Virus record (IMG/VR): IMGVR_UViG_3300042516_004946
Coordinates: 1 to 36,508 of that record
Reading direction: 5' to 3' (one strand)
Source: a virus
DNA length: 36,508 nt
In this document: positions 4,083 through 35,692 of the stretch, piece after piece
Position numbering within the stretch: position 1 is the first letter of the stretch
How the letters are laid out: every line of letters begins with the position of its first letter
Translations under genes and position numbers: made by a program
Notes under the pieces: model-generated
Database searches by the model: none
What the model was told of the DNA's origin: nothing
Seen by the model: the letters and a program-made list of their open reading frames with translations, nothing else

Positions 4083-4713
4083 TTCTTCCCACCAAAACCG
4101 ATGTCTTAAATTTATAATCACCTCCACCATATTGAAATGTTGTATTATAATACTTTGAGAATATTATTTTAGCAGTAATTTGTGATTTTAAATCATCAAC
4201 ATTATAGATTGGATTACCATATCTCATAAGCATATTACTAGTTCCAGTTAAAGAAACAAGTGTACCTTTTTTCGGTGATGGGATAAGCTCATCAAATGGT
4301 AAAAGCATATTTACTGATGGTATAATTATACCATCTTTATTATCGATAAATTCATTGATATTATTAAATACTACATTTTTTCTAATGTATGAAATTGACA
4401 TTGATGGATATAGAATTGAAATTTTTTTACCTAGCTCAATTACGGTTTTATCATGATCCAAAAGAATAATTTCTTTTACCTTTTTTGATCGATCAAGTAT
4501 CTCTAAAGTCATAAGAGATAACCAAGAAGCTAATATTATAATTTTTGAATTTTCTAAAAGATTTTCTGCAAAGCTAATACCTACATCAAATTCTGGTTGG
4601 GTATATGCAGTTGATATACTATTTTTTATAACCCTACATATTGCAGGGCTCTGGTCGATCATAATAGAATTTGCTTTAGATATGACAGAATTTAAACAGC
4701 TATCATATATCAT
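4078..4713 (-). CDS. Unknown protein with a methyltransferase-like Rossmann core
   Basis: Possibly a SAM-dependent methyltransferase or a degenerate relative; 211 residues. Residues about 55-100 show a strand-helix-strand pattern: KIIILASWLSLMTLEIL, then VKEIILLDHD with an acidic residue closing the second strand, as in class I methyltransferases. The usual glycine-rich motif I is replaced by ASWLS, so activity is doubtful. A later TLVSLTG strand and FQYGGGDYKFKTSVLVGR end would fit the C-terminal sheet. It overlaps the upstream glycosyltransferase-like gene by 11 bases and shares its low GC, so the two probably act on the same target. No specific substrate can be named. Confidence 0.5.
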   Translation of the reverse strand: MIYDSCLNSVISKANSIMIDQSPAICRVIKNSISTAYTQPEFDVGISFAENLLENSKIIILASWLSLMTLEILDRSKKVKEIILLDHDKTVIELGKKISILYPSMSISYIRKNVVFNNINEFIDNKDGIIIPSVNMLLPFDELIPSPKKGTLVSLTGTSNMLMRYGNPIYNVDDLKSQITAKIIFSKYYNTTFQYGGGDYKFKTSVLVGRI

Positions 4714-5428
4714 GAGAATCCCACATTTGCTTTGCCCAACCTTTAGTATTGGATATATCTAATCCAAAACCATGAGAATTGTTAAACAGACAAATCTTAT
4801 ATTCGGGTCGATATTTTGCTAGCTCAATATCATCAGGCCAGTGCGCGCCAGCATTATATGAATATACCATTTTTTTCGGATGATATGAATATTGATCTTC
4901 TAAAAGATAAAACATTGAGTGATCTAGACTCCAATATATCTTGGAGATTTTTTCAATATTATCTTTGTAAAATTTAAATATATGATTAGCTTGATTATCG
5001 CGCCAAGTTATAAATGATGAATTTATTGCACAGTAATTATGACCGTAATGTGTTATGATTGCATCCGGTGGAGCCCAATAGTTTTTTATTAGGCGAAATT
5101 CAGTAAAGCATTCATTAAGATATTCGGTTAAATTATTATGAATTATAATATCCAAATCAAGAAGAACATAGGGTCCAGCACAATCTAGAAAACCAGTTTT
5201 AAAGGCGGATACCTTTTCTATGGTAAACATAGTTTGACTAGTACCACAAAATGAGCTAAGTTCTTTAATGTTTTTACATATTACTTCGCTGCGAATATTA
5301 GCAGAATCATCAGTTATACAATAAAATTTAAAAGGTAGATTGTAATTTTTATTAACCATTGAATATAAGCGATTTACATATAATGCGGGATATTTCTTAC
5401 CCCACTTATAGCATATAAATCTAATCAA
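4703..5428 (-). CDS. Glycosyltransferase-like protein (GT-A fold, DxD motif)
   Basis: Probably transfers a sugar from a nucleotide sugar; 241 residues. The N-terminus (MIRFICYKWGKKYPALYVNR) resembles GT-A proteins of phages and bacteria. The metal/nucleotide-binding DxD is DLD at about residues 91-93 within YVLLDLDIII. A conserved-looking acceptor half follows (INSSFITWRD, LDHSMFYL, YSYNAGAHWP). The start is TTG at 5426-5428, supported by GGAG eight bases upstream; that GGAG is one half of the palindrome CTCCGGAG whose other half serves the divergent gene. The 3' end overlaps the methyltransferase-like gene. The acceptor (fibre, host surface sugar or DNA) is unknown. Confidence 0.68.
   Translation of the reverse strand: MIRFICYKWGKKYPALYVNRLYSMVNKNYNLPFKFYCITDDSANIRSEVICKNIKELSSFCGTSQTMFTIEKVSAFKTGFLDCAGPYVLLDLDIIIHNNLTEYLNECFTEFRLIKNYWAPPDAIITHYGHNYCAINSSFITWRDNQANHIFKFYKDNIEKISKIYWSLDHSMFYLLEDQYSYHPKKMVYSYNAGAHWPDDIELAKYRPEYKICLFNNSHGFGLDISNTKGWAKQMWDSHDI
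5414..5421 (+). promoter_or_regulatory. Candidate late promoter box (TATAAATC) for the inverted gene
   Basis: Plus-strand TATAAATC is 7 of 8 identical to the T4 late consensus. It lies 30 bases before the ATG at 5452, a distance like that of the boxes before gp8 and gp48. It lies inside the coding start of the divergent gene. Confidence 0.38.
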
Positions 5429-5436
5429 TGCACTTT

Positions 5437-5444
5437 CTCCGGAG
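5437..5444. promoter_or_regulatory. Palindromic Shine-Dalgarno shared by two divergent genes
   Basis: CTCCGGAG is its own reverse complement. On the minus strand GGAG (5440-5437) lies 8 bases before the TTG start at 5428; on the plus strand GGAG (5441-5444) lies 7 bases before the ATG at 5452. Both spacings are normal, so one 8-base site appears to serve both divergent starts, which are only 23 bases apart. Confidence 0.65.
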
Positions 5445-5451
5445 CTTAATT

Positions 5452-6081
5452 ATGTATCATATCTATTCATTGCTGGTCAAACCAAAATATACTGTCAATG
5501 ATGTTAAAAATATAAACTTACTATGTCACAAATTTGTACCTGGACCATTTGTGCATCATTGTCTAACTGATGATATAGAGCAATTTAATGGGGAGAATTT
5601 TTGCAATCCAATTGATATTAAAAAATATAATTTGGATACATGGTGGAACAAACTTATCGTCTTTGAAAAAGGATTTTGTGAATCAGGATCAACGTGCATG
5701 TTTTTTGATCTAGATTCAACTATATTAAAACCTTTAAATCCAATATTAGAAAATTATGATGGTAAACTCACTTATGCAACTAATCCGCATAAAATTAGAT
5801 CACAATATTTGAATAGTATAATTTATGGTAAGCATGGTGCATATTATACTATGATGAATTCATCATTCATGCTTTGGAAGGGTGATAATAATCCAGAAAT
5901 ATGGAATAAATTTTCAACGGACCCAGAATATTATATGTGCAAATATCTTTTAGGTAATGATCAATATATGTCCTTTGAGCATTCCAATTTTAGACTTCTT
6001 GATGAGAAATATATTACAGACTATCAAATGAAAAGAATGAAAATGGAACACCCAAAGGCTATAATATCATTAAAGGGTTAA
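5452..6081 (+). CDS. Glycosyltransferase-like protein, inverted within the minus-strand operon
   Basis: GT-A-like protein of 209 residues from the ATG at 5452. An upstream in-frame ATG at 5428 exists, but GGAGCTTAATT just before 5452 supports the later start. The DxD is DLD at about residues 86-88 in CMFFDLDSTI, followed by NSSFMLWKGDN and NDQYMSFEH, which parallel INSSFITWRD and LDHSMFYL of the divergent neighbour. The two are therefore related paralogues, with this one shorter. It is the only plus-strand gene between 1 and 28.9 kb. Its stop and the stop of the convergent oxygenase-like gene overlap on the palindrome TTAA (6078-6081). The acceptor is unknown. Confidence 0.66.
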   Translation: MYHIYSLLVKPKYTVNDVKNINLLCHKFVPGPFVHHCLTDDIEQFNGENFCNPIDIKKYNLDTWWNKLIVFEKGFCESGSTCMFFDLDSTILKPLNPILENYDGKLTYATNPHKIRSQYLNSIIYGKHGAYYTMMNSSFMLWKGDNNPEIWNKFSTDPEYYMCKYLLGNDQYMSFEHSNFRLLDEKYITDYQMKRMKMEHPKAIISLKG

Positions 6082-6716
6082 CATGATTCTATTTCTTCAA
6101 TCATATTTTCCCAAATATTTTTGTCATATATCACATAACTTAGTGTTAATCTATCGCAATCTGTTCTTGCAGAATGCCAAAAAATCTTGTCTTTCTCGCT
6201 AAATTTACCAAAATATCCAGCCTTTGCAGTCCAGCCGGGCTTATCCTTTATAGTATTAATTTCTTTTGCATCAAGATCATAATGATAGAAAGCACCATCA
6301 CCGGTCTTACTATATGTCATGATTATATTGTAACCATGAGCATTTGAATTATTATGCCAACCAATAAATCCCTTTGGTGGATAATACATCTTAAGAGCAT
6401 TATTTCTAGCACCTAAAAATGTAATAAGATCATCATCTAGCTTTTTCAATACGGAATGAAAATTCTTAGGTAGCTTTTCCGGCGACATCATAAGCATGTC
6501 CGCACCCCAAGCATCTCTAGGAAATCCAAACCGATCAGGTGTTGGTAGGGCTCTCTTTAGATATTCTGCATCTGTGCATTCAATGTAGGATAATCCCTTT
6601 TTGAAATCATCTCTACGTTGTGCTTCTAAAGAGGTATAGTCCTGAGAAAAAAACCAAGTGCTAAAATTATCTAATATCTGTAGGAGATCCGGATGAATTC
6701 TCGATAAAACCCGCAT
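6078..6716 (-). CDS. 2-oxoglutarate/Fe(II) oxygenase-like protein
   Basis: Probably a hydroxylase of the double-stranded beta-helix type; 212 residues from the start MRVLSRIHPDLLQIL. Support is the order MYYPPKGFIGWHNN (His about 121), a middle strand IIMTYSKTGDGAFYHYD, then IFWHSARTDCDRLTLSYVIY with His about 181 and Arg about 189, the usual distal His and 2OG-binding Arg pattern. The usual HxD iron ligand reads H-N-N here, so the acidic ligand is replaced, as in the two-histidine Asp/Asn hydroxylases, or the protein is inactive. A longer reading to 6812 overlaps the upstream gene too far. The chosen ATG (AGGG upstream) overlaps it by 50 bases. Confidence 0.55.
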   Translation of the reverse strand: MRVLSRIHPDLLQILDNFSTWFFSQDYTSLEAQRRDDFKKGLSYIECTDAEYLKRALPTPDRFGFPRDAWGADMLMMSPEKLPKNFHSVLKKLDDDLITFLGARNNALKMYYPPKGFIGWHNNSNAHGYNIIMTYSKTGDGAFYHYDLDAKEINTIKDKPGWTAKAGYFGKFSEKDKIFWHSARTDCDRLTLSYVIYDKNIWENMIEEIESC

Positions 6717-7416
6717 GAATTTTTTCCCTTGGTATTGTGTAATGGTGGACAACAATAGGTTTGTCTGTCTCACTCTCTTTATAATTATAAACGAAATTCC
6801 ACCTAGCATCATCAGGAAGAGTGGCTATTTTGATTCCTGTAGTATCTTCCTTACAAATTCGCCAGAATGTAAACTGGTCCCATGGTTTCATTTTTTCCGA
6901 ATATTCAGGCCATGGCCAAATTTTACTATGAATTTGTGTCAGGTAATCTTGCCACCACTTACGCATAAATGATTTGACTTTTTCACTATTTCTATACAAA
7001 AATAAACCACCATGGTATTTCATTTTCTCGGTTTTACTGACATTTACACCCTTTCCGCTATATTCACGGATTTCTGTCATTGAGATATCATTGTCACCTA
7101 AAAGATCAAAAATGTCCTTTATATCTTCATGCCATACTTCAGTATCACAATCCATGTATAATGTTATATCATATGGTGACTTATCTAAGGCATAAAGCTT
7201 TGCTCTAGTATGCACAGGTATACCAATATTAATATTTTCAAATAGATACCTATGACAATCTTCTACAAAAGCTGCGTGTGTAAAAAGGGTTATACGAGCA
7301 TCAGGATAATGATCCTTGATTGATACAGCTAATCTAACACCTGCATTATAAAAAGCCTTTGATATTGAAGCAACTAGTAAAAATCCCTTACTGGGTTGCG
7401 GTATTTGCTGTAGCAT
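6667..7416 (-). CDS. Glycosyltransferase-like protein (GT8-like, DxD motif)
   Basis: Probable nucleotide-sugar-dependent transferase of about 250 residues. GFLLVASISKAFYNAG begins the first Rossmann-like strand and helix. RAKLYALDKSPYDITLYMDC continues into DxD (DCD at about 89-91 from this start). Then HGGLFLYRN and a late KPIVVHHYT supply the patterns seen in GT8-type enzymes. The start is uncertain: ATG at 7416 and GTG at 7431 are both in frame, both overlap the upstream gene, and neither has a clear Shine-Dalgarno. The recognisable fold begins just after the upstream stop codon. It differs from the two neighbouring DLD proteins, so it may use another sugar or acceptor. Confidence 0.68.
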   Translation of the reverse strand: MLQQIPQPSKGFLLVASISKAFYNAGVRLAVSIKDHYPDARITLFTHAAFVEDCHRYLFENINIGIPVHTRAKLYALDKSPYDITLYMDCDTEVWHEDIKDIFDLLGDNDISMTEIREYSGKGVNVSKTEKMKYHGGLFLYRNSEKVKSFMRKWWQDYLTQIHSKIWPWPEYSEKMKPWDQFTFWRICKEDTTGIKIATLPDDARWNFVYNYKESETDKPIVVHHYTIPREKIHAGFIENSSGSPTDIR

Positions 7417-7858
7417 CTGGTGCACTTTCACTCACAGTATTCATAATTGCTGTATGATTTTCCATTGCAATCATCGAAGCTATAACCATAACTTCCATAG
7501 GAGTTGTGGCCTTACGTAGCTTTGATTTTAAAGCGGTATTTGTTGATGTGCGAACAAGCTCAATTTCAAAAGCATCACTCTTTGCCATAAACAATGCTTC
7601 TCTTTTACGCATTTCATTTTCGCGCTCATGATCCATTTGTCGCTTTAGGCGATTATTTTCATGAGTTTGACGCTTCTTCGCAGTATTAGCATCAATTTCT
7701 TCAATCGTATATTTTTCAAATATTTCGGCCCAATCCGGATTACCTTCTTCGGTCTGGGTAACAGAAGCGGTCAGGATTCTACCATCATCATATTTGAATA
7801 AACATATAATTTGATTTTTTAAATTAGAACCCCAATAGGGGTCTAGAATTTCTTTCAT
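7388..7858 (-). CDS. Unknown protein following the fibre gene, helical C-terminal half
   Basis: I do not recognise this 156-residue protein. The N-terminal 50 residues (MKEILDPYWGSNLKNQIICL, then FKYDDGRILTASVTQT) look like a small beta domain. Residues about 55-100 are highly charged (KKRQTHENNRLKRQMDHERE) and probably a coiled coil; the end is Ala/Thr-rich. Lying directly after the long fibre gene, it could be a fibre chaperone or a small fibre-associated protein, by position only. A TTG start three codons earlier (7867) is possible, but its AAGG is too close; the ATG overlapping the fibre stop region is preferred. Confidence 0.6.
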   Translation of the reverse strand: MKEILDPYWGSNLKNQIICLFKYDDGRILTASVTQTEEGNPDWAEIFEKYTIEEIDANTAKKRQTHENNRLKRQMDHERENEMRKREALFMAKSDAFEIELVRTSTNTALKSKLRKATTPMEVMVIASMIAMENHTAIMNTVSESAPDATANTATQ

Positions 7859-7859
7859 A

Positions 7860-9629
7860 TTAGGCAATCCTTACCCACAATCTAACGGTTGAGACATTTT
7901 CTGTACTTACCAAAATGGTAGCACCAGTATAATTACCGGTAAAAGTTCCAGCATAGGTTCCAGTATAATTTCCTGTAAATGTGCTGGAATAATCTCCAGT
8001 ATATGTACCAGAATATGTAGTCGTAAAATTACCAGTATATGTACCAGAATATGTGGTTGTATAATTTCCTGTATATGTACCACCAAAAGTTCCTGTAAAT
8101 GTACCAGCATAGAATCCAGTATAATTTCCTGTAAATGCTCTTGCGTAATTACCGGTATATGTACCAGAATATGTAGTGGAATAAAATCCGGTATAAGCAC
8201 CAGCATAATTTCCTGTAAATGCTCTTGCATAACCGCCAGTATAACTTCCTGTAAATGTGCTAGTATAAAAACCAGTATATGCACCAGCATATGAACCAGA
8301 AAATACCCGGGCATAAAATCCCGTATAGTTTCCCGTAAAATTGCTAGTGTAAAATCCTATGAAAAATCCTGTATAAACTCCTGAATATGCGCCAGCAAAT
8401 GGAATGCCGGTAAATGGTTGAAAATATGTACCTGTATAAAAACCTGTAAATGCTCTTCCGTAAGCACCAGAGAATGTCCGAGCATAAAATCCAGTATATG
8501 TACCAGAAAAGCTATTTGTGAAATTTCCGGTATATGAACCAGTATAACTTCCGCTAAATGCTCTTGCATAATTTCCAGTATATGTACCAGAATATGTGCT
8601 TGTATAATTACCAGTATATGTGCCGGAATAATTTCCTGTAAATGCTCTTGCGTAATTACCAGTATATGTACCAGAATATGTGCTTGTATAATTACCAGTA
8701 TATGTGCCGGAATAACTACCAGTAAAGGGTGATGTATATGTACCGGAATAATTTCCTGTAAATGCTCTTGCATAATTTCCAGTATAACTTCCGCTAAATG
8801 CTCTTGCATAATTTCCAGTATAACTTCCGCTAAATGCTCTTGCATAATTTCCAGTATATGTACCGGAATAATTTCCTGTGTAATTTCCGGTATATGTTTG
8901 ATCGGCTCTTTGGTTTCTGGTATCGATAAATGCAGATCCAGCGGTGACCCAAGTACCACCACTTACTGGAGCCGATTCTTGTAAAGAATAACGACCAATA
9001 CCAGTAGCAACTATTCTATTTCGAAGTCTAGATGTTAATGTTTGTATATTTGCATCAGTCATCTGTCTGATGGCAGTGCCGTCCAATCTTAGAGGTCTAA
9101 CAGTGGTGGGTGCTGTTCCGCCTGTTTTTCTCCAGAGAGTTGTAGTATCACTACCGGCGCTAGTGCTATTAGTTATAGTAGCAATAGATGTCCAAGTACC
9201 TGTGGGTGATGATGGTTGTAAAACATATGAACCAATACCCGTGCCAACCAAATTAGTCAAAGCATTTGCTATTATGTCTGAATTAAGTTGAGTATCATTT
9301 TGGACACGAACACCCCCTGTTGAAAATTCAAGAGGCCTTAATAGAGAAGTTTCGCTGGCTGATCCTAGGTCTTGCTTAAATTCATATGTTGTAGATGTAA
9401 TATCTGTACCTACGGGATGATCGCCTACGCTAAACGGTCTAGTTGTATCAATAAAGGTTCCTATTGATGTACCACTAACACCATTAACATTTAATGTACC
9501 AACACCAGTCTGACTAGATGCGAAATCCTTTAAAATAACATCTATACTATAATCTTGTTCTGACGTAGTCATGGTTTGCAGACCTTGGAAGGTCGCACCA
9601 GACATTCTTAGCTTTAAAGGTGATGCCAT
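7860..9629 (-). CDS. Tail fibre-like protein with 81 aromatic tetrapeptide repeats
   Basis: Likely a distal fibre or adhesin; 589 residues. Residues 1-100 form a beta-rich head (MASPLKLRMSGATFQGL). About 110-240 hold two diverged copies of one module: GTGIGSYVLQPSSPTGTW near 129 and ATGIGRYSLQESAPVSGGTW near 208. From Tyr246 to about 570 every fourth residue is Tyr or Phe, with units of the type YTGN, YSGT, FTGN and YARA. The register slips once, at a five-residue unit FTGIP near 406-410. The end, about 20 residues (VSTVRLWVRIA), is non-repetitive. AAGGTG precedes the ATG. Strictly spaced aromatics suggest an extended beta fibre. Neighbours are another fibre-like gene and glycosyltransferases. 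Confidence 0.75.
   Translation of the reverse strand: MASPLKLRMSGATFQGLQTMTTSEQDYSIDVILKDFASSQTGVGTLNVNGVSGTSIGTFIDTTRPFSVGDHPVGTDITSTTYEFKQDLGSASETSLLRPLEFSTGGVRVQNDTQLNSDIIANALTNLVGTGIGSYVLQPSSPTGTWTSIATITNSTSAGSDTTTLWRKTGGTAPTTVRPLRLDGTAIRQMTDANIQTLTSRLRNRIVATGIGRYSLQESAPVSGGTWVTAGSAFIDTRNQRADQTYTGNYTGNYSGTYTGNYARAFSGSYTGNYARAFSGSYTGNYARAFTGNYSGTYTSPFTGSYSGTYTGNYTSTYSGTYTGNYARAFTGNYSGTYTGNYTSTYSGTYTGNYARAFSGSYTGSYTGNFTNSFSGTYTGFYARTFSGAYGRAFTGFYTGTYFQPFTGIPFAGAYSGVYTGFFIGFYTSNFTGNYTGFYARVFSGSYAGAYTGFYTSTFTGSYTGGYARAFTGNYAGAYTGFYSTTYSGTYTGNYARAFTGNYTGFYAGTFTGTFGGTYTGNYTTTYSGTYTGNFTTTYSGTYTGDYSSTFTGNYTGTYAGTFTGNYTGATILVSTENVSTVRLWVRIA
7920..8894 (-). repeat. Tandem 12-base coding repeat (aromatic tetrapeptides)
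   Basis: About 81 degenerate 12-base units encode [Tyr/Phe]-[Thr/Ser/Ala]-[Gly/Arg]-x. Larger near-identical blocks occur: the stretches near 8581-8700 and 8761-8850 repeat 36-60 base patterns with few changes, which points to recent unequal recombination or slippage. The array stays in frame throughout. Confidence 0.92.
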
Positions 9630-9640
9630 GTTATTTCACC

Positions 9641-10168
9641 TTATGGATATGCTTGAGAACCGTTGGCATGATAGACATATAACGGAGCGGTCGTGGTAGC
9701 ACCATCAGGATATCTAAAGCCTCCACTCGAAGATCGAATAATACCTGATACGTCAAATGTCGTATTTGGGTTTGTCTTTCCTACACCAATTCTATTGGTG
9801 ATAGGATTTATAAACATAGTACCCGCATCAATATTTAATGTTGTAGATAATGATAGTGTGTTTGCGCCTATATTTACAACACTGGAAGGTGATGCGCCTA
9901 AAGTTGTATTGCTAATTACTAGCAAATTAGAATTCATTCTGACATAGCCGTTGGCCGTCAAAGCGCCATTTATTATGGTCGTGTCAAGTGACGAATCACC
10001 TAATTTACTATTTCCAAGAGAAAAAAACCTAACATTTGCTGTAATGGTATTAGCATATAATGATGACTCGTTAATAGAAAATTGACTCAGGCGATGAAAT
10101 GCCTGATTGGTTCTAATTCTCCATGTATCAAATGTATTGGTAAGTGCTACATTTGCAATCTTTGCCAT
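9641..10168 (-). CDS. Fibre-like structural protein
   Basis: Probable virion fibre or fibre-attachment protein of 175 residues. The N-terminal block MAKIANVALTNTFDTWRIRT, then NQAFHRLSQF, is of a type found at the start of fibre proteins in T4-like marine phages (from memory). The rest is Asn/Thr/Ser-rich beta structure (NTTLGASPSSVVNIGANTLS, IGVGKTNPNTTFDVSG), like the shafts of fibres with shallow beta repeats, ending in a Tyr-rich tip. AGGGG lies 5 bases before the ATG. It lies between the small coiled-coil gene and the long repeat fibre, so the three may form one appendage. Confidence 0.68.
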   Translation of the reverse strand: MAKIANVALTNTFDTWRIRTNQAFHRLSQFSINESSLYANTITANVRFFSLGNSKLGDSSLDTTIINGALTANGYVRMNSNLLVISNTTLGASPSSVVNIGANTLSLSTTLNIDAGTMFINPITNRIGVGKTNPNTTFDVSGIIRSSSGGFRYPDGATTTAPLYVYHANGSQAYP

Positions 10169-10395: not shown

Positions 10396-13300
10396 CTTTG
10401 TAGTGCAATCACTCTCATATCATCTAGTCTAGGTGGGCGAGAGGTTGTAGTATTGGTCAATACAATCTTGATTGACATGTACTTATAACCCTCAAATCTA
10501 GCACCAGAAGAATTTCTATATTCTACGATATTTGAGTTTGTAGTATTTGCGCCTGATCTATATGTATTGCTATATGCAGGCACCTGAAATACGTATTCCT
10601 TAAAGTCATTTTGATCTTCTGAGCTTGAGAATACTGTTGATGCCGTTACACCTTCTTCATTAACCATAGATAACGGAGCCCATATGGCTTGATCAAAGGT
10701 ATCGCTATCCTCTCTATGAAGAATCTTATAATAAGCCAATACATCAGAACCAGGTGGTCTATATGCTGTTAGATATAGGCGAATATCTTCAGCATCCTGA
10801 CCATCCGCTAGTGTAACCTTGCGGGTTATATACCTGGCCATAGCGCCACCACCAGATGAATATCCGGCTTCATTTGTAGTATTAGCATTAATCATATTCT
10901 CTACAGTTATCACAGAAATACGCTTCACATCGATTGCTGGTGATACAAACGGAGACTGAGATGCCATTGAAATTGAAATCTCAGCTGATCTGTCTGTTGC
11001 CATAGTTGAACTTGATGCTACCGTATTCGATTCTATGCTTCTGCTAAGAACAAAACGAGGAGCATCAAATTCATAATTATCATTTGGATACAGTCTTAGA
11101 GAAGTTGTATCGCGTGTAGAGGTTCCTGTTGCAAACTTACCATAAAATGCTATACCAGTATTTGGCGGCAGAATATAATCTGTGCTGAAATTGATAACAT
11201 CCGCACGAAGATTATTCATTTTAGCAATATAACCGGTTCTTCCAAGAATCTGACCTCTAATATAGGTATTAGCAAAGAATATTCTTCCTGAAGTCGATGC
11301 AGGCCCGCTATTGACATAAGATACGTTTGCAAGATGCAGGAATGTATTGCTAAATCCGATATCATTGTAATACACGATACGGCCAATTGGTGTTGTAGCA
11401 GAAGTTATGCCACCATTTGATACACCAATAATTCTACCTGATGCAGGATCCAGAGAATTAGCACCAATATTACGAATACGTATAGTTTCGCCGCCCAAAA
11501 ACTTAGCACGGCTAACATTGCGAATACGTAATTGAGTTGGGCTAAATCTTGATATTGTTCCGGTAGCACCTGATGTAATACCCTGAACAAATGTAACGGC
11601 CGTATTAACTGGTTGTGTATTTGTGGTAGCAAATGTGCCAGTCAGAATAGTTTCACCATGAACTTCTTCACCAATTCGACTAAAGGTTCCTGATGTATTT
11701 GCAATAGTTAAATAGTCGCGCAATTCATTCTTAAATGTTGCTCTACCACTTGAAGTATTTAAAAATGTGGCAAGATACATTGTATATTTGATATCTTCTT
11801 CTTGCACAGCAGAATATTGACGATCATTAGATGAAGCAAAAAGAGTACCAATAGCAGGTTGAGTTGTGACTCTATTACCTGAAATGATATCAGTTTCGCC
11901 TAGTCTTGCAATGAATACGTTATAATCCGGATTGGATGCAATTGGTTTAATAACAAAGGCATATTCTTTACCTTCCTGCAAATATACAGGTGACGGAAAG
12001 TGAACAGGAGTTGGCTTTGATGAATCCTCACTAATATTTACTTCATCTGATGACAGTATGACTCGGCTAAACGGAACCACACGAGATGTTATATTGAATG
12101 ATACAGGATCAACCTCTCTTATGTGGACTTCAACACCTAAGCTTTCATGCTTTGTAGCAAAAAACAGATCCACTTTGGTTACAAAGATACCGCTGACAAG
12201 TGATCCTAGGACTCTTGATGTGATTAGGAATGACTGAGCAATTGGGTCGCCGCCGTCGCCACCACCATCACCACCTCCACCATCACCGCCGCCGCCGCCG
12301 CCGTCTCCGCCAGCGTCTCCACCAGCGTCTCCGCCAGCGTCTCCGCCAGCGTCTCCGCCAGCGTCTCCACCAGCATCGCCAGCGTCGCCAGCATCGCCAG
12401 GACCAGCATCACCAGGCGCATCACCAGGCGCATCACCGGGTGCACCAGTAGCATCACTAAAACCACCTTGAGCATCGCTTATGCTTTGGCTACTATCTGG
12501 TGTATCTGTAGATTGGCTACCACTAAATCCACCGCCATCGCCGCCGCCACCCCACCAAATTTCGGGTTGTGGTTCTGGTGGGGGTGGATCAGGTATAACT
12601 GGTGGTGTGACTATCACCGGTGGCGGTGGTGGGGTCACTGGCGGCCGTTCATCAGGAATTATCGGCGTAGGCGTAACAATTGTATCTGTAGGTGTAATGG
12701 GTAGAATTGTTACATTAGTTTCAGTTGTTGGTCCTGGTAACACAGGCGGTTTTACAACAGGGCCTTCTGTCGGTGGTTGAAGCACAATAGGCACAGGAAC
12801 TTCAATTATTTTGGTTACTATGACAGGTACCGGGACTTCAACGGGCTGTATGATAATTATTGGAGGCGGTGGTGGAATAGGATCCGGTACAAACACAGAA
12901 TTAGTAACACTTGATGACGATGTTCTGGTTTCTGTGACAGTTCTCGGTACAAGATCAGGATATCTAGTAGTCACAACAGTAGTTTCAGTTTGTTGTGATA
13001 GACCCTGTGCCGTATAAGTTGCTTCAGCTGAAGTGGTAACAGATCCAGTTGATGCTGAATTGTTTTGACTATCCGTTAAACGGAAAATCTTTGAACCAAT
13101 TCTAAACTTTAACTTGCTATCATTTGGAAGTCTAAACGTACCATATACATCACCATTTGCGGCAGCAAACAAACTCCCACCCTCAGATCCAATTCGTGTG
13201 AAATTGGAATCTGTTGGTGTCACATATGCCGAAACTGCAGTTCCATCAAAAAATGGATATACTCTACTACCAGGCTTTAGACCCTTACCAGTAAATCTGA

Positions 13301-31794: not shown

Positions 31795-33537
31795 TTGGCC
31801 GCATTAGCTGATGCTATGAGAATATATGGGCTTGGTGGAGATAACAATCAAGGGCGTGTTATGTCTTTGCCCGTAGAAATACTAACATCAGCAGAACCGG
31901 GGTCTCTACAAAAAATAGGTGGTGGAATATCAAGATCAGTAATATCAGAAGTAAAAGATATTTTAGGTCGAATGATTAGTGGGTTGCGAAAATTTAATGA
32001 TGAAAAAGAAGATCAGAGAATTGTATTAGAGCGTATACGAACCAATGAAGAAGAATCAATAAGAGAAAGATTAATCAGACCACCTGTTGATAATAAAATT
32101 GTAGAACGCATAGAAAATGAAACACCGCAGCAAACAGAGCAGGATGGTATTTTAGGTCAATTTGCTGCTTTAAGAGATATTCTACGCAAAATATTTGGTG
32201 TAGGAAGAATATTCATAACTATAGTTGCAGCTGCCGCGCGAGCAATTGGTAGATTACTTTCAACATTAAGTGGTCTAGCAACGGGTTATGCATTATTGCG
32301 GAGGGTATTAAATGCATTAAGAGGTAACCCGAGGTTTAGATTATTGCGCGGACTTGGTGGTATAGTCTCAGGAGTTGCTGCCGGTGCTGGTGCAATTGCT
32401 ATAGGTAGAGAATTGCTTGGTGGTGGTGAAGAAAGAACACCATCACCAGTGGCCGCAGCACCTTCTACACCAAGCACACCTTCTACACCAAGCACACCTT
32501 CTACACCAAGTGGAGCTGGTAGAAGAGGTGCACCAACAGGTGGACCTTCAACAACATTTGCATCTGAAGTTGTTGAAGGTGAAGGTCGAAGAAATACCCA
32601 AGGTATTATGCTGGATATACCACCTGAAGGTAGAGGTTTATTAGATGCTATTGCTGTACCAGAAAGTGCTGGTAGATACAATATAATTTTTGGTGGTCAG
32701 ACCTTTTCTGATTTTTCTGATCACCCTAGAGTTGATGTCAGAATACCTAGCGGACCTAATGCAAATAGAACTTCAAGTGCCGCTGGCAGATATCAATTTA
32801 TTAAGGGTACATGGGATAGTATATCAAGAAAATATGGACTATCTGATTTTAGTCCTGAAAATCAAGATAGAGCTGCTTGGTATCTAGCGCAAGAAGATTA
32901 CAAGTCAAGAACCAGAAGGGATCTTTATACAGATCTACGTGAAGGTAGATTGCAAGAAGTATCAATTGCTCTTAGTCGAACTTGGACTTCACTTGCTGGC
33001 GGGATTGAAGCACAGGCATCAGGAACAGGATCAAGATTTCAAACAAATTATCAATCTGGTTTATCGGCTGGTAGAGAACAGATAGAAGCATCTCAAAGAG
33101 TTGCAGAAAATAGACGTACTCAAGATTCAGCCGAATTAGTTAGAATAACTGAAGCCAATCAACAACAAACTAGACCAGAAGGGTCAACAAGACCTCAAGA
33201 TTCATCTGAACCAACTAGACCTCAAGGTGCGCCTGAACCAACTAGACCTCAAGGTGCGCCTGAACCAACTAGACCTCAAGGTGCGCCTGAACCAACTAGG
33301 CAACAAGAACGAACTGAAATAGATATGGCAATGGGTCTAGTTGGTTCAGGTCAAGAAAATAGACGACCTATGATCGAAAATGTGCAACAAGTAGCACAAA
33401 CTCCTGGTGCATTATCACCGCAGCAATTACAACCATCATCACAAATACCAGCAACAATAACAGCGGGCGCAGAATCAACTCCAACCGATGTAATAATTTT
33501 ACCTTTGCTGGTAGAAGGACCTCAAACAAATGCCTAA
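31795..33537 (+). CDS. Structural protein with GH104 tail lysozyme domain
   Basis: Virion protein of 580 residues, likely hub- or tape-measure-associated, that cuts peptidoglycan at entry. Residues 1-130 are charged and helical; 130-170 and 180-205 are hydrophobic, membrane-like segments; 215-245 is a Thr-Pro-Ser linker. About 280-425 is a lambda-R-like lysozyme (GH104): [20 protein letters not shown] with catalytic-type Glu290, [29 protein letters not shown] and [20 protein letters not shown]. The tail contains three 9-residue repeats (PTRPQGAPE) and low-complexity Gln/Pro. The start is TTG immediately after the previous stop, with AGGA 10 bases upstream; the ATG at 31816 lacks a site. It overlaps the next gene by 8 bases. 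gp5 here lacks the lysozyme. Confidence 0.78.
32461..32510 (+). repeat. 18-base tandem repeat (Thr-Pro-Ser linker)
   Basis: CCTTCTACACCAAGCACA occurs at 32461-32478 and 32479-32496, with a partial third copy. It encodes the PSTPST linker just before the lysozyme domain. Confidence 0.85.
33211..33291 (+). repeat. 27-base tandem repeat, three identical copies
   Basis: A 27-base unit beginning CCAACTAGACCTCAAGG occurs at 33211-33237, 33238-33264 and 33265-33291 without any difference, with partial flanking copies. It encodes PTRPQGAPE. Exact identity suggests recent expansion; copy number could vary without breaking the frame. Confidence 0.92.
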
Positions 33538-35692
33538 TCTAACCGAATTGATGAATAAGATAGGCACCGATGTCATCTATGATGAGAGAACTCAGCGGTT
33601 TCATGATTTAACTAAAAATTATCGTATGACCAGAGAACCGGCAAGTGGTGTATTTGGTACTATGACAAGAAGTGGTTCTGCAATACCAGCAAATGCTAAT
33701 GCTGCTAGTGGATCAACCGTAAACAAATATGTTCCTATATCAGTATTTGAAGAATTCAAAAGAGATATTTACGGATTTATCTCACAAATAGCAACTTTTG
33801 CGAAAGATGGTCTTGCGGAAATTCAGAGATCAGTTAGGGTGCAAGAAAGAGATTATGATCTCTTAGTTGATGCTGAACGCAAAGCAAGAGAACAACAACT
33901 TGAGACCAATATGGCTAATTCCGAGATAAAACCAAAAGAAAGACGAATTGAAAGAATTAGACCTTCTGGTTCATCTGGACTCGGTCTTTTAGAATTTCTC
34001 GCAATAGGTGCTATAGTATCAACATTAACTGCTGCCATGACTATGACACCGGAGCAAATAGTCGATCTTGGAAGATCGATAGATCAATTTGTCGAAAGAG
34101 TTAGATCTGTAGCAACCGCAATATCAGAAGCATCAGATATTATAACGACCATTATTACAGGTTTGGGTGTTATTTTAGCGGGTGCGGGTGCATTAAGCTT
34201 AGTAAATAGATTAATGGATGGTAAAACCCCACCACCTGCTGGACCTGGACCGAGACAACCTGGACCCACAACACCATCTCAACCTCGACCAGGTCCTTCA
34301 TCTCCACCATCAATGCCTTCTGCCGCAAGTGCCGCAGGCACAGCGGCCGCTGGTGCAGCTACTGCAGGTATTGCAGGTGCAGCTGCTGGATCTCAAACCA
34401 CACCACCAAGGGCCCCACCGCCACCAGTAGCACCCCCACCACCTCCTCCACCACCCCCCCCTCCGGCATCAAGACCACCAGTGACACCACCGCCGGCACC
34501 AACAAACCGTTTTGGTGCGCTTGGTGTTCCATTACCAGATCCGCCGCGAGGTCCTACACCACCGCCGGCACCACCAAGACCACCAGTGGCACCAGTGACA
34601 CCAGTGACACCACCGCCGGCACCACCAAGACCACCAGTGGCACCAGTGACACCACCGCCGGCACCACCAAGACCACCAGTGGCACCAGAGCTAAAAGCTA
34701 ATGCTGCCGAAAGATTAGCACCTGGAACTCCTACGCAAACACAAACACCATCTACTCAAGAAGCACCAAAAGCCGGTGAACCTACTAGAGCAGGTAATCG
34801 TTTTTCACGCATAATACGTTCGGCTCCAGCATTAGCAGCATTATTGGAATCAATTAATGCATACCAACAGATTGATAATCTTTCAGAACGTAGAGATAAT
34901 CAGGAAATAACAGAAGAAGTTTATAAAGAAGAAGTCATCAATGTCATAGCAAGAGCAATTGGAGCTGTAGCAGTAGGATCTGCTGGAGCTGCTTTGGGTG
35001 GTATGATTGGTAGTATGATGACACCTGGAGTTGGTACTCTGCTTGGTGCAATTGCTGGTGGTATGATGGGTGCAGAGCTTGGAGCTGATGCTGGTGAAAG
35101 ACTGGCCAATACTAGAATCGGTAGAATGATCGGAAATGCAGTATATGGTTCGTTTTTCTCAAGCGAGGCTCCTATACAACCTATACAGCGAATAGTTATG
35201 TTTAGGAGATCGGGTGAAAATATAGAAAATGAATTATCAAATAGACTAAGAGCACTTTCGGAAGAAAGGGCTCAAAGGGTCACATCAACAGAGCAAGCCG
35301 TAGATATTGTAGATACTGCTATAACCGAAGGCAGAATTACGGAAAGACAAGGATCACAAATCCGTGAAGCAATAGGGCAATCCGGTAATTATAATAATAT
35401 TAGAATGGGCGATATTGAAGTTGCAATAGAACAACTTCAAGCTTCAAGAGAAGGTACTGGGGAAACTCTAAGAGTGGGTACAGATCGCGGGGGTAGAGTT
35501 ATTGTTCTACCACCGACGCCTATGCCCACTCAACGCCCAACTGAAAATAGAGCCAATCCTAGAGGAAATCCTAGAGGGAATAATTCCAATCCAGGAAGAG
35601 GCTCTAGTGTTAGCGACCTTCAAACCAGAAATCGTGATGCATCTTTAGCTGCCGCTCAAGAGCAAGCCAATTTTATGGTGCATGGGGCATAA
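33530..35692 (+). CDS. Hydrophobic Pro-rich structural protein, candidate tape measure/hub
   Basis: Unknown virion protein of 720 residues. Residues 65-140 are a charged helical part. About 151-171 and 204-225 are membrane-like spans ([36 protein letters not shown]). About 232-405 is a Pro/Ala/Thr linker with a run of prolines and three copies of [11 protein letters not shown]. About 475-520 is a glycine-zipper segment ([38 protein letters not shown]). The C-terminal 170 residues are helical, then Asn/Arg/Gly-rich. The position after gp26, gp51-like and the lysozyme protein, where T4 has 27-28-29, and the pore-like segments suggest a tape measure or membrane-inserting hub protein. No family is recognised. 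Its stop codon lies in the loop of a hairpin. Confidence 0.66.
34558..34687 (+). repeat. Pro-rich coding repeat, three copies
   Basis: About 40-base units containing CACCGCCGGCACCACCAAGA repeat three times and encode [11 protein letters not shown] with a variable VTPVT, VT or EL end. An eight-C tract lies upstream at 34454-34461 in the same linker. Confidence 0.82.

Follow-up and report, generated by a model that had tools for sequence, protein, structure and literature searches.

The protein encoded on the minus strand at 9629..7860 of the window (the whole stretch of viral DNA analysed, 36.5 kb) is quite probably a tail fibre with a very long beta hairpin, running out and back, as its shaft. 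Its two arms of aromatic tetrads mirror each other around a central pentad, FTGIP, and mirror registers of the same kind occur in relatives.

The tetrad fibre gene and its surroundings

The window carries the tail module of a T4-like myophage, with sheath stabiliser, head closure, tube cap, hub and baseplate wedge genes, and the fibre gene lies in the tail/baseplate cluster, with baseplate wedge, hub and tube-cap genes nearby. Beyond the baseplate genes come a 2270-aa structural protein and a 175-aa gene, then the fibre gene, and after it a 159-aa gene followed by glycosyltransferase-like genes. The features are as follows:

9629..7860, minus strand: fibre ORF, 589 aa
8895..9629, minus strand: N-terminal domain, residues 1-245, two ~70-aa 'MTDAxI...GxYxLQ..AP.GTW' modules; proposed attachment domain
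8415..8894, minus strand: outgoing arm, residues 246-405, 40 aromatic tetrads
8400..8414, minus strand: putative FTGIP turn, residues 406-410, five residues at the mirror centre; PFFGGF/LFFGGF is the counterpart in relatives
7920..8399, minus strand: returning arm, residues 411-570, 40 aromatic tetrads, its non-Gly tetrads mirroring the outgoing arm
7863..7919, minus strand: conserved C-terminal tail TILVSTENVSTVRLWVRIA, residues 571-589, the last 19 residues
10392..17204, minus strand: 2270-aa baseplate-adjacent structural protein (phrog_358, in part phrog_1980 tail fibre)
9641..10168, minus strand: 175-aa gene upstream of the fibre, in closer relatives only (25/161 loci)
7388..7867, minus strand: 159-aa gene directly downstream of the fibre; assembly chaperone proposed from its position
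6667..7431, minus strand: glycosyltransferase-like gene (PF03407) of the same cassette

The first-pass annotation had described an aromatic residue at every fourth position from residue 246 to 567, with the single pentad FTGIP, and all 81 aromatics were confirmed in the translated ORF (41 from Y246 to F406 and 40 from F411 to Y567). Its figure of 41 tetrads before the slip and 40 after it is right for the aromatics, while counted strictly the units are a pentad flanked by 40 tetrads on either side. The upper bound of the range it gave, 7920-8894, corresponds to residue 246 (codon 8892-8894), whereas 7920 belongs to residue 570 and the last aromatic, residue 567, is encoded at 7929-7931. Such a run of 81 aromatics cannot be attributed to chance. 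The commonest units are Y-T-G-N or F-S-G-S, and Gly fills position 3 of the tetrad in 74% of cases, the rest being mainly Arg, Ser, Thr or Asn, with Gln as well; the description 'Gly or Arg between' was thus correct for these two residues but left out Ser/Thr/Asn. It is the exceptions to Gly at position 3 that carry the mirror signal described below. Tandem DNA repeats are present in the fibre gene. Elsewhere in the window, twelve-base repeats at 12302-12437 encode a GDAG-rich linker inside the 2270-aa protein, and tandem repeats at 33185-33318 and 34556-34688 lie inside an endolysin-like gene and a tape-measure-like gene.

The fibre protein had no family match in Pfam or PHROG and no match among PDB sequences, and nothing relevant was found in the literature on the tetrad motif, the fibre family or phage C48C1. 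Using a scan for 21 aromatics at 12-base spacing, we found that tetrad runs recur in many viral contigs, as the first-pass annotation had proposed searching for, and that most of the viral-contig matches listed are genuine tetrad proteins. The same pattern occurred in 14 stretches of the 257 Gb of cellular genomes scanned, 13 of them being other low-complexity or antisense frames. The sole real tetrad fibre among these 14 (L245) is on a 142 kb contig of a Sphingobacteriales MAG, perhaps a misbinned phage.

In relatives, the 2270-aa protein, the fibre, the 159-aa gene and the glycosyltransferase recur in this order. Among loci with the fibre N-domain, the 159-aa gene is present in 127/161 and the glycosyltransferase in 129/161, a count that takes in several overlapping pieces of the same contigs. 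The 159-aa protein matched nothing in Pfam, and in PHROG nothing below E 0.1. Glycosyltransferase-like genes at 4703-7431 of the window adjoin the fibre, and the Ser/Thr/Tyr-rich fibre could be their substrate. The place after the baseplate genes, the conserved folded N-terminal domain and the conserved gene cassette bear out the earlier designation as a fibre and support the assignment of the window protein as a putative tail fibre of a T4-like phage.

Mirror register around FTGIP

Within the window protein, the mirror sum is i+j = 813, which places the centre inside FTGIP. Counted from this pentad, the non-Gly tetrads of the returning arm are numbers 5, 8, 12, 15, 19, 22, 29, 32 and 35, and in the outgoing arm they include numbers 6, 9, 13, 16, 20, 23, 30, 33 and 36. 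At i+j = 813 each of the nine non-Gly tetrads in the C-arm exactly faces a non-Gly tetrad of the N-arm, and every one of these pairs is complementary, with Arg facing Ser/Thr/Asn. Only two Gly/non-Gly mismatches occur, YGRA and YTSP. The latter (residues 298-301, window 8727-8738) breaks the pairing rule by standing opposite a Gly tetrad, and likewise a YTSP in L002.

None of 20,000 shuffles equalled this mirror, and 11/20,000 did so under a stricter shuffle that kept the set of spacings and let the offset vary by up to eight tetrads. The best parallel alignment of the arms gave 7 coincidences, 3 of them complementary. Moreover, phi reaches 0.93 at the true centre and does not exceed 0.60 when the centre is moved in 4-residue steps. 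The first-pass annotation had rightly stressed the slip at the midpoint, but 'a kink or boundary' is less apt than a fold-back turn, since arm lengths, irregular units and non-Gly tetrads all mirror around FTGIP.

Arms, hinges and mirror signal in relatives

Relatives were collected in IMG/VR by a whole-protein search (40 loci) and an N-domain search (79 loci). The N-terminal domain is conserved in all of them, and the signature L[WY]VR is found at the C-terminus of those relatives whose protein ends were listed. For arm lengths, we used 24 distinct full-length members, namely the window protein and 23 relatives, in which a hinge motif (FTGIPF, FSGTPF, FFGGF and variants) divides the repeat region into two arms. 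The arm pairs range from 39/47 to 277/285 residues, and the lengths of the N-arm and C-arm are tightly correlated (r = 0.995, slope 0.99, n = 24), with a difference of 7-9 residues in 19/24 members. The unequal arms of L002 (+31), L189 (+27) and L171 (+19) count against a fold-back; those of L002 align once about seven extra tetrads of one arm are gapped out.

In L003-L021, six-residue units interrupt the tetrads, in equal number per arm and with constant residue sums. These units mirror by type, P opposite T and SR opposite SR, and where they could be matched by position the pairs were 41 SR-SR, 44 P-T and 1 P-P. By the measured offsets, P stands directly opposite T, and the R of an SR unit would, by derivation, lie opposite an aromatic. 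In L196 and L238, most TR/SR units are unpaired at the offsets tested; in L198 and L190 the units are mostly outside the offset list, and the order of unit types is complementary. One relative (L013:6001-7254) carries the hinge segment YQRFFAGFSGGFF in two copies, so that its topology may differ from that of single-turn members, with two turns. Some loci encode two tetrad fibres of unequal length: L009 (779 and 939 aa), L051, L088, L099 and L100 (1379 and 683 aa).

Homologues of 2,000-3,100 aa carry the mirror across 500-950 ungapped residues, with phi of 0.86-0.93. One of them, L105 (3138 aa), has the same N-domain and tail as the window fibre and a mirror score of 183 against a null of 29, over ungapped arms of ~950 residues (phi 0.93). 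At position 3, its table of Gly-Gly, Gly-other, other-Gly and other-other reads 89/5/3/140; Lys faces Thr 49 times and Thr never faces Thr. The gapped mirror of L105 covers the whole repeat region, residues 253-3111, with its centre at 1682.5 and the midpoint at 1682.0. L085 (phi 0.88) and L119 (phi 0.86) both resemble L105, although L105 and L085 are not independent cases because their tip sequences are similar. The mirror scores of L079, L051 and L125 are also above shuffles. A larger non-repeat insert occupies the centre of these giant fibres instead of a short turn, and arms in relatives from uncultured phages may reach about 1,400 residues.

The tetrad mirror was not above shuffles in the R/G-type families C48C1, L098, L104 and L115 (ungapped), nor in L099, L088 and the longer L100 fibre. 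Several of these families, such as C48C1, L099, L088 and L104, share the tail signature, and the lack of a tetrad mirror in them counts against a fold-back. Of the 71 tetrad proteins scanned, most showed no position-3 mirror. Some of the position-3-negative proteins carry signal in six-residue units, and many are truncated or poor in informative residues. Given that mask-only mirror centres are skewed to the midpoint by overlap, weight was put on hinge motifs, unit types and position-3 identity.

C48C1 is the only one of 50,697 annotated phage records with any of the fibre N-domain, the 159-aa gene or the glycosyltransferase. Its fibre (WJE88074.1, Kyanoviridae, a hypothetical protein of about 3,350 aa) shares with the window protein the homologous N-domain, the tetrads, the C-tail, the 159-aa partner and the glycosyltransferase. 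It differs in its non-repeat inserts, in its many octads, where aromatics come only at every eighth position, and in that no mirror was detected by the scoring used. The locus L042:5512-15555 corresponds to this fibre, in which repeated non-tetrad inserts of roughly 100 residues separate the tetrad segments.

Fold-back model and alternative readings

Structure prediction gave partial information. For the whole window protein, AlphaFold2 with 13 sequences returned an unusable model (pLDDT 34.5); the arms, at a pLDDT of about 25-30, gave no usable model, which counts against a fold-back. A short relative, L166 (370 aa, arms of ~50 residues), was modelled as a monomer with 26 sequences (pTM 0.66), the N-domain (residues 1-240) reaching a pLDDT of about 77-94 per ten-residue block and the tail 85-94. 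Its strands 236-252/344-369 and 256-267/327-338 have residue 297 as their rough centre of symmetry, and the mirror centre of its sequence, a mask-only centre, is at 297-299. This symmetry is consistent with a fold-back and is no proof of it, because arm confidence is below 50. Foldseek searches against PDB and BFVD, which bear on a collar-type base domain like D10 of T4 gp37, returned nothing significant (the top BFVD hit being a T4 protein 37 fragment, E 0.03, TM 0.11), and the sole VIA-align result was 6u2k chain B, MPEG-1 (Z 4.2, rmsd 4.7, 117 aligned). With these results, no claim of a new fold is made.

A known structure offers the closest geometric comparison. In the T4 gp37 needle, equal stem arms 882-931 and 960-1009 enclose a tip, 932-959, inserted at the apex; G921 packs on F970 of another subunit, the sum 1891 being that of the stem-end mirror, and the needle base is built from N- and C-terminal parts (PMC6957217). 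The window fibre is like this needle (domains D10-D11) in its equal out-and-back arms and apex tip, here at the level of sequence only, in presumed aromatic-Gly packing at mirror positions (G921/F970 in gp37) and in that its gene sits among the tail genes of a T4-like phage; a base formed from both chain ends would be a further common point. In contrast, the gp37 stem has 50 residues per arm and HxH iron sites, whereas the window fibre has 160 residues per arm and Tyr/Phe at every fourth residue. His is absent from the window arms, and from positions after residue 250 in members below 1,000 aa. No Pfam, PHROG or PDB sequence match indicated homology to T4 gp37. By the features tested, the window fibre is not a gp37 member and resembles gp37 in arm geometry.

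Three other readings of the repeat were weighed. Two extended chains lying head to tail, with an N-domain at each end of the rod and no hairpin, would bring residue i of one chain opposite 813-i of the other, an i+j symmetry identical to that of a fold-back in mirror tests. We nevertheless regard such an antiparallel homodimer as unlikely, since the Gly/Pro-containing or PFFGGF turn, or the large insert of the giants, suits an apex and would be needless in the middle of a rod, and since parallel trimers are the norm among phage fibres of this kind. The N-domain and C-tail are moreover both confident in the single L166 monomer model, even if a swapped partner could supply the tail. Local repetition alone might also build a one-way fibre, such as a beta solenoid or spiral with 12 residues per turn. 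Non-Gly tetrads of the window protein do tend to return at intervals of 3 and 7 tetrads (correlation at lag 3 of 0.44, 0/5,000 shuffles), but the repeat order varies among families (2, 3, 5, 6 or 7 tetrads), the best-correlated lag in 103 proteins being 3 tetrads in 41, 7 in 22, 6 in 12, 5 in 11 and 2 in 10. A one-way arrangement gives no reason to expect equal arms or complementary mirror pairs and therefore appears very improbable. A general 12-residue solenoid, which lag 3 in the window had suggested, was discarded, as residues per turn are not constant and other families use other lags. Collagen-like GXY and triple beta-spiral shafts share with the window fibre a short strict repeat, but only those shafts are one-way and have no mirror register.

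The first-pass annotation had named a disordered linker as its alternative, and a low-complexity linker growing by replication slippage would fit the tandem DNA repeats and the very low AlphaFold2 confidence. In members with the mirror signal it fails, however, to explain a register that is residue-exact across up to 950 residues in relatives, and we give it hardly any credence. Slippage and duplication yield direct repeats, and DNA inversion yields reverse complements, not reversed amino acids. Since none of these processes can produce amino-acid mirrors, a residue-exact complementary mirror points to selection for contact between antiparallel arms. Most likely, then, the arms pair antiparallel, within one chain or between chains, an arrangement compatible with the 'intertwined beta fibre with aromatic stacking' first suggested.

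In the fold-back that we favour, the N-terminal domain would anchor the chain at the fibre base, and forty tetrads would go outwards as a single strand up to FTGIP, which would reverse the chain at the tip. Forty tetrads would then return antiparallel in exact register (i+j = 813), bringing the C-terminal tail back to the N-terminal domain. Aromatic would stand opposite aromatic and position 3 opposite position 3, pairing Gly with Gly, or a bulky residue (Arg, Lys) with a small one (Ser, Thr, Asn). What can be read off the genes and proteins themselves is the register, the pairing code, the equality of the arms, the central hinge and the synteny; from these we infer beta strands, which would pair in cis or with a neighbouring subunit. 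Most likely, three chains would together form a six-stranded rod like the T4 gp37 needle, and by the same analogy the apex (the turn, or the larger insert in giants) may be the host- or receptor-facing tip. Folding of T4 fibres is assisted by gp38/gp57A, and the 159-aa protein might help in a comparable way. Assuming straight strands, the rod of the window fibre would be about 50 nm long (160 residues at 0.33 nm, ~53 nm) and that of L105 perhaps 470 nm at 0.33 nm per residue.

On balance, we lean towards regarding these proteins as a new fibre class, in which a complementarity code (Gly-Gly, Arg/Lys-Ser/Thr, Pro-Thr, SR-SR) would set the register over hundreds to >1,000 residues, topology would be readable from sequence, and hairpins would extend up to several hundred nanometres. 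Fold topology would then be readable directly from the repeat where AlphaFold2 gave no model, by a pairing code that recalls complementary strands and points to a natural design by which very long protein rods could be scaled in length. This large unannotated fibre family probably governs which hosts many uncultured T4-like phages recognise.
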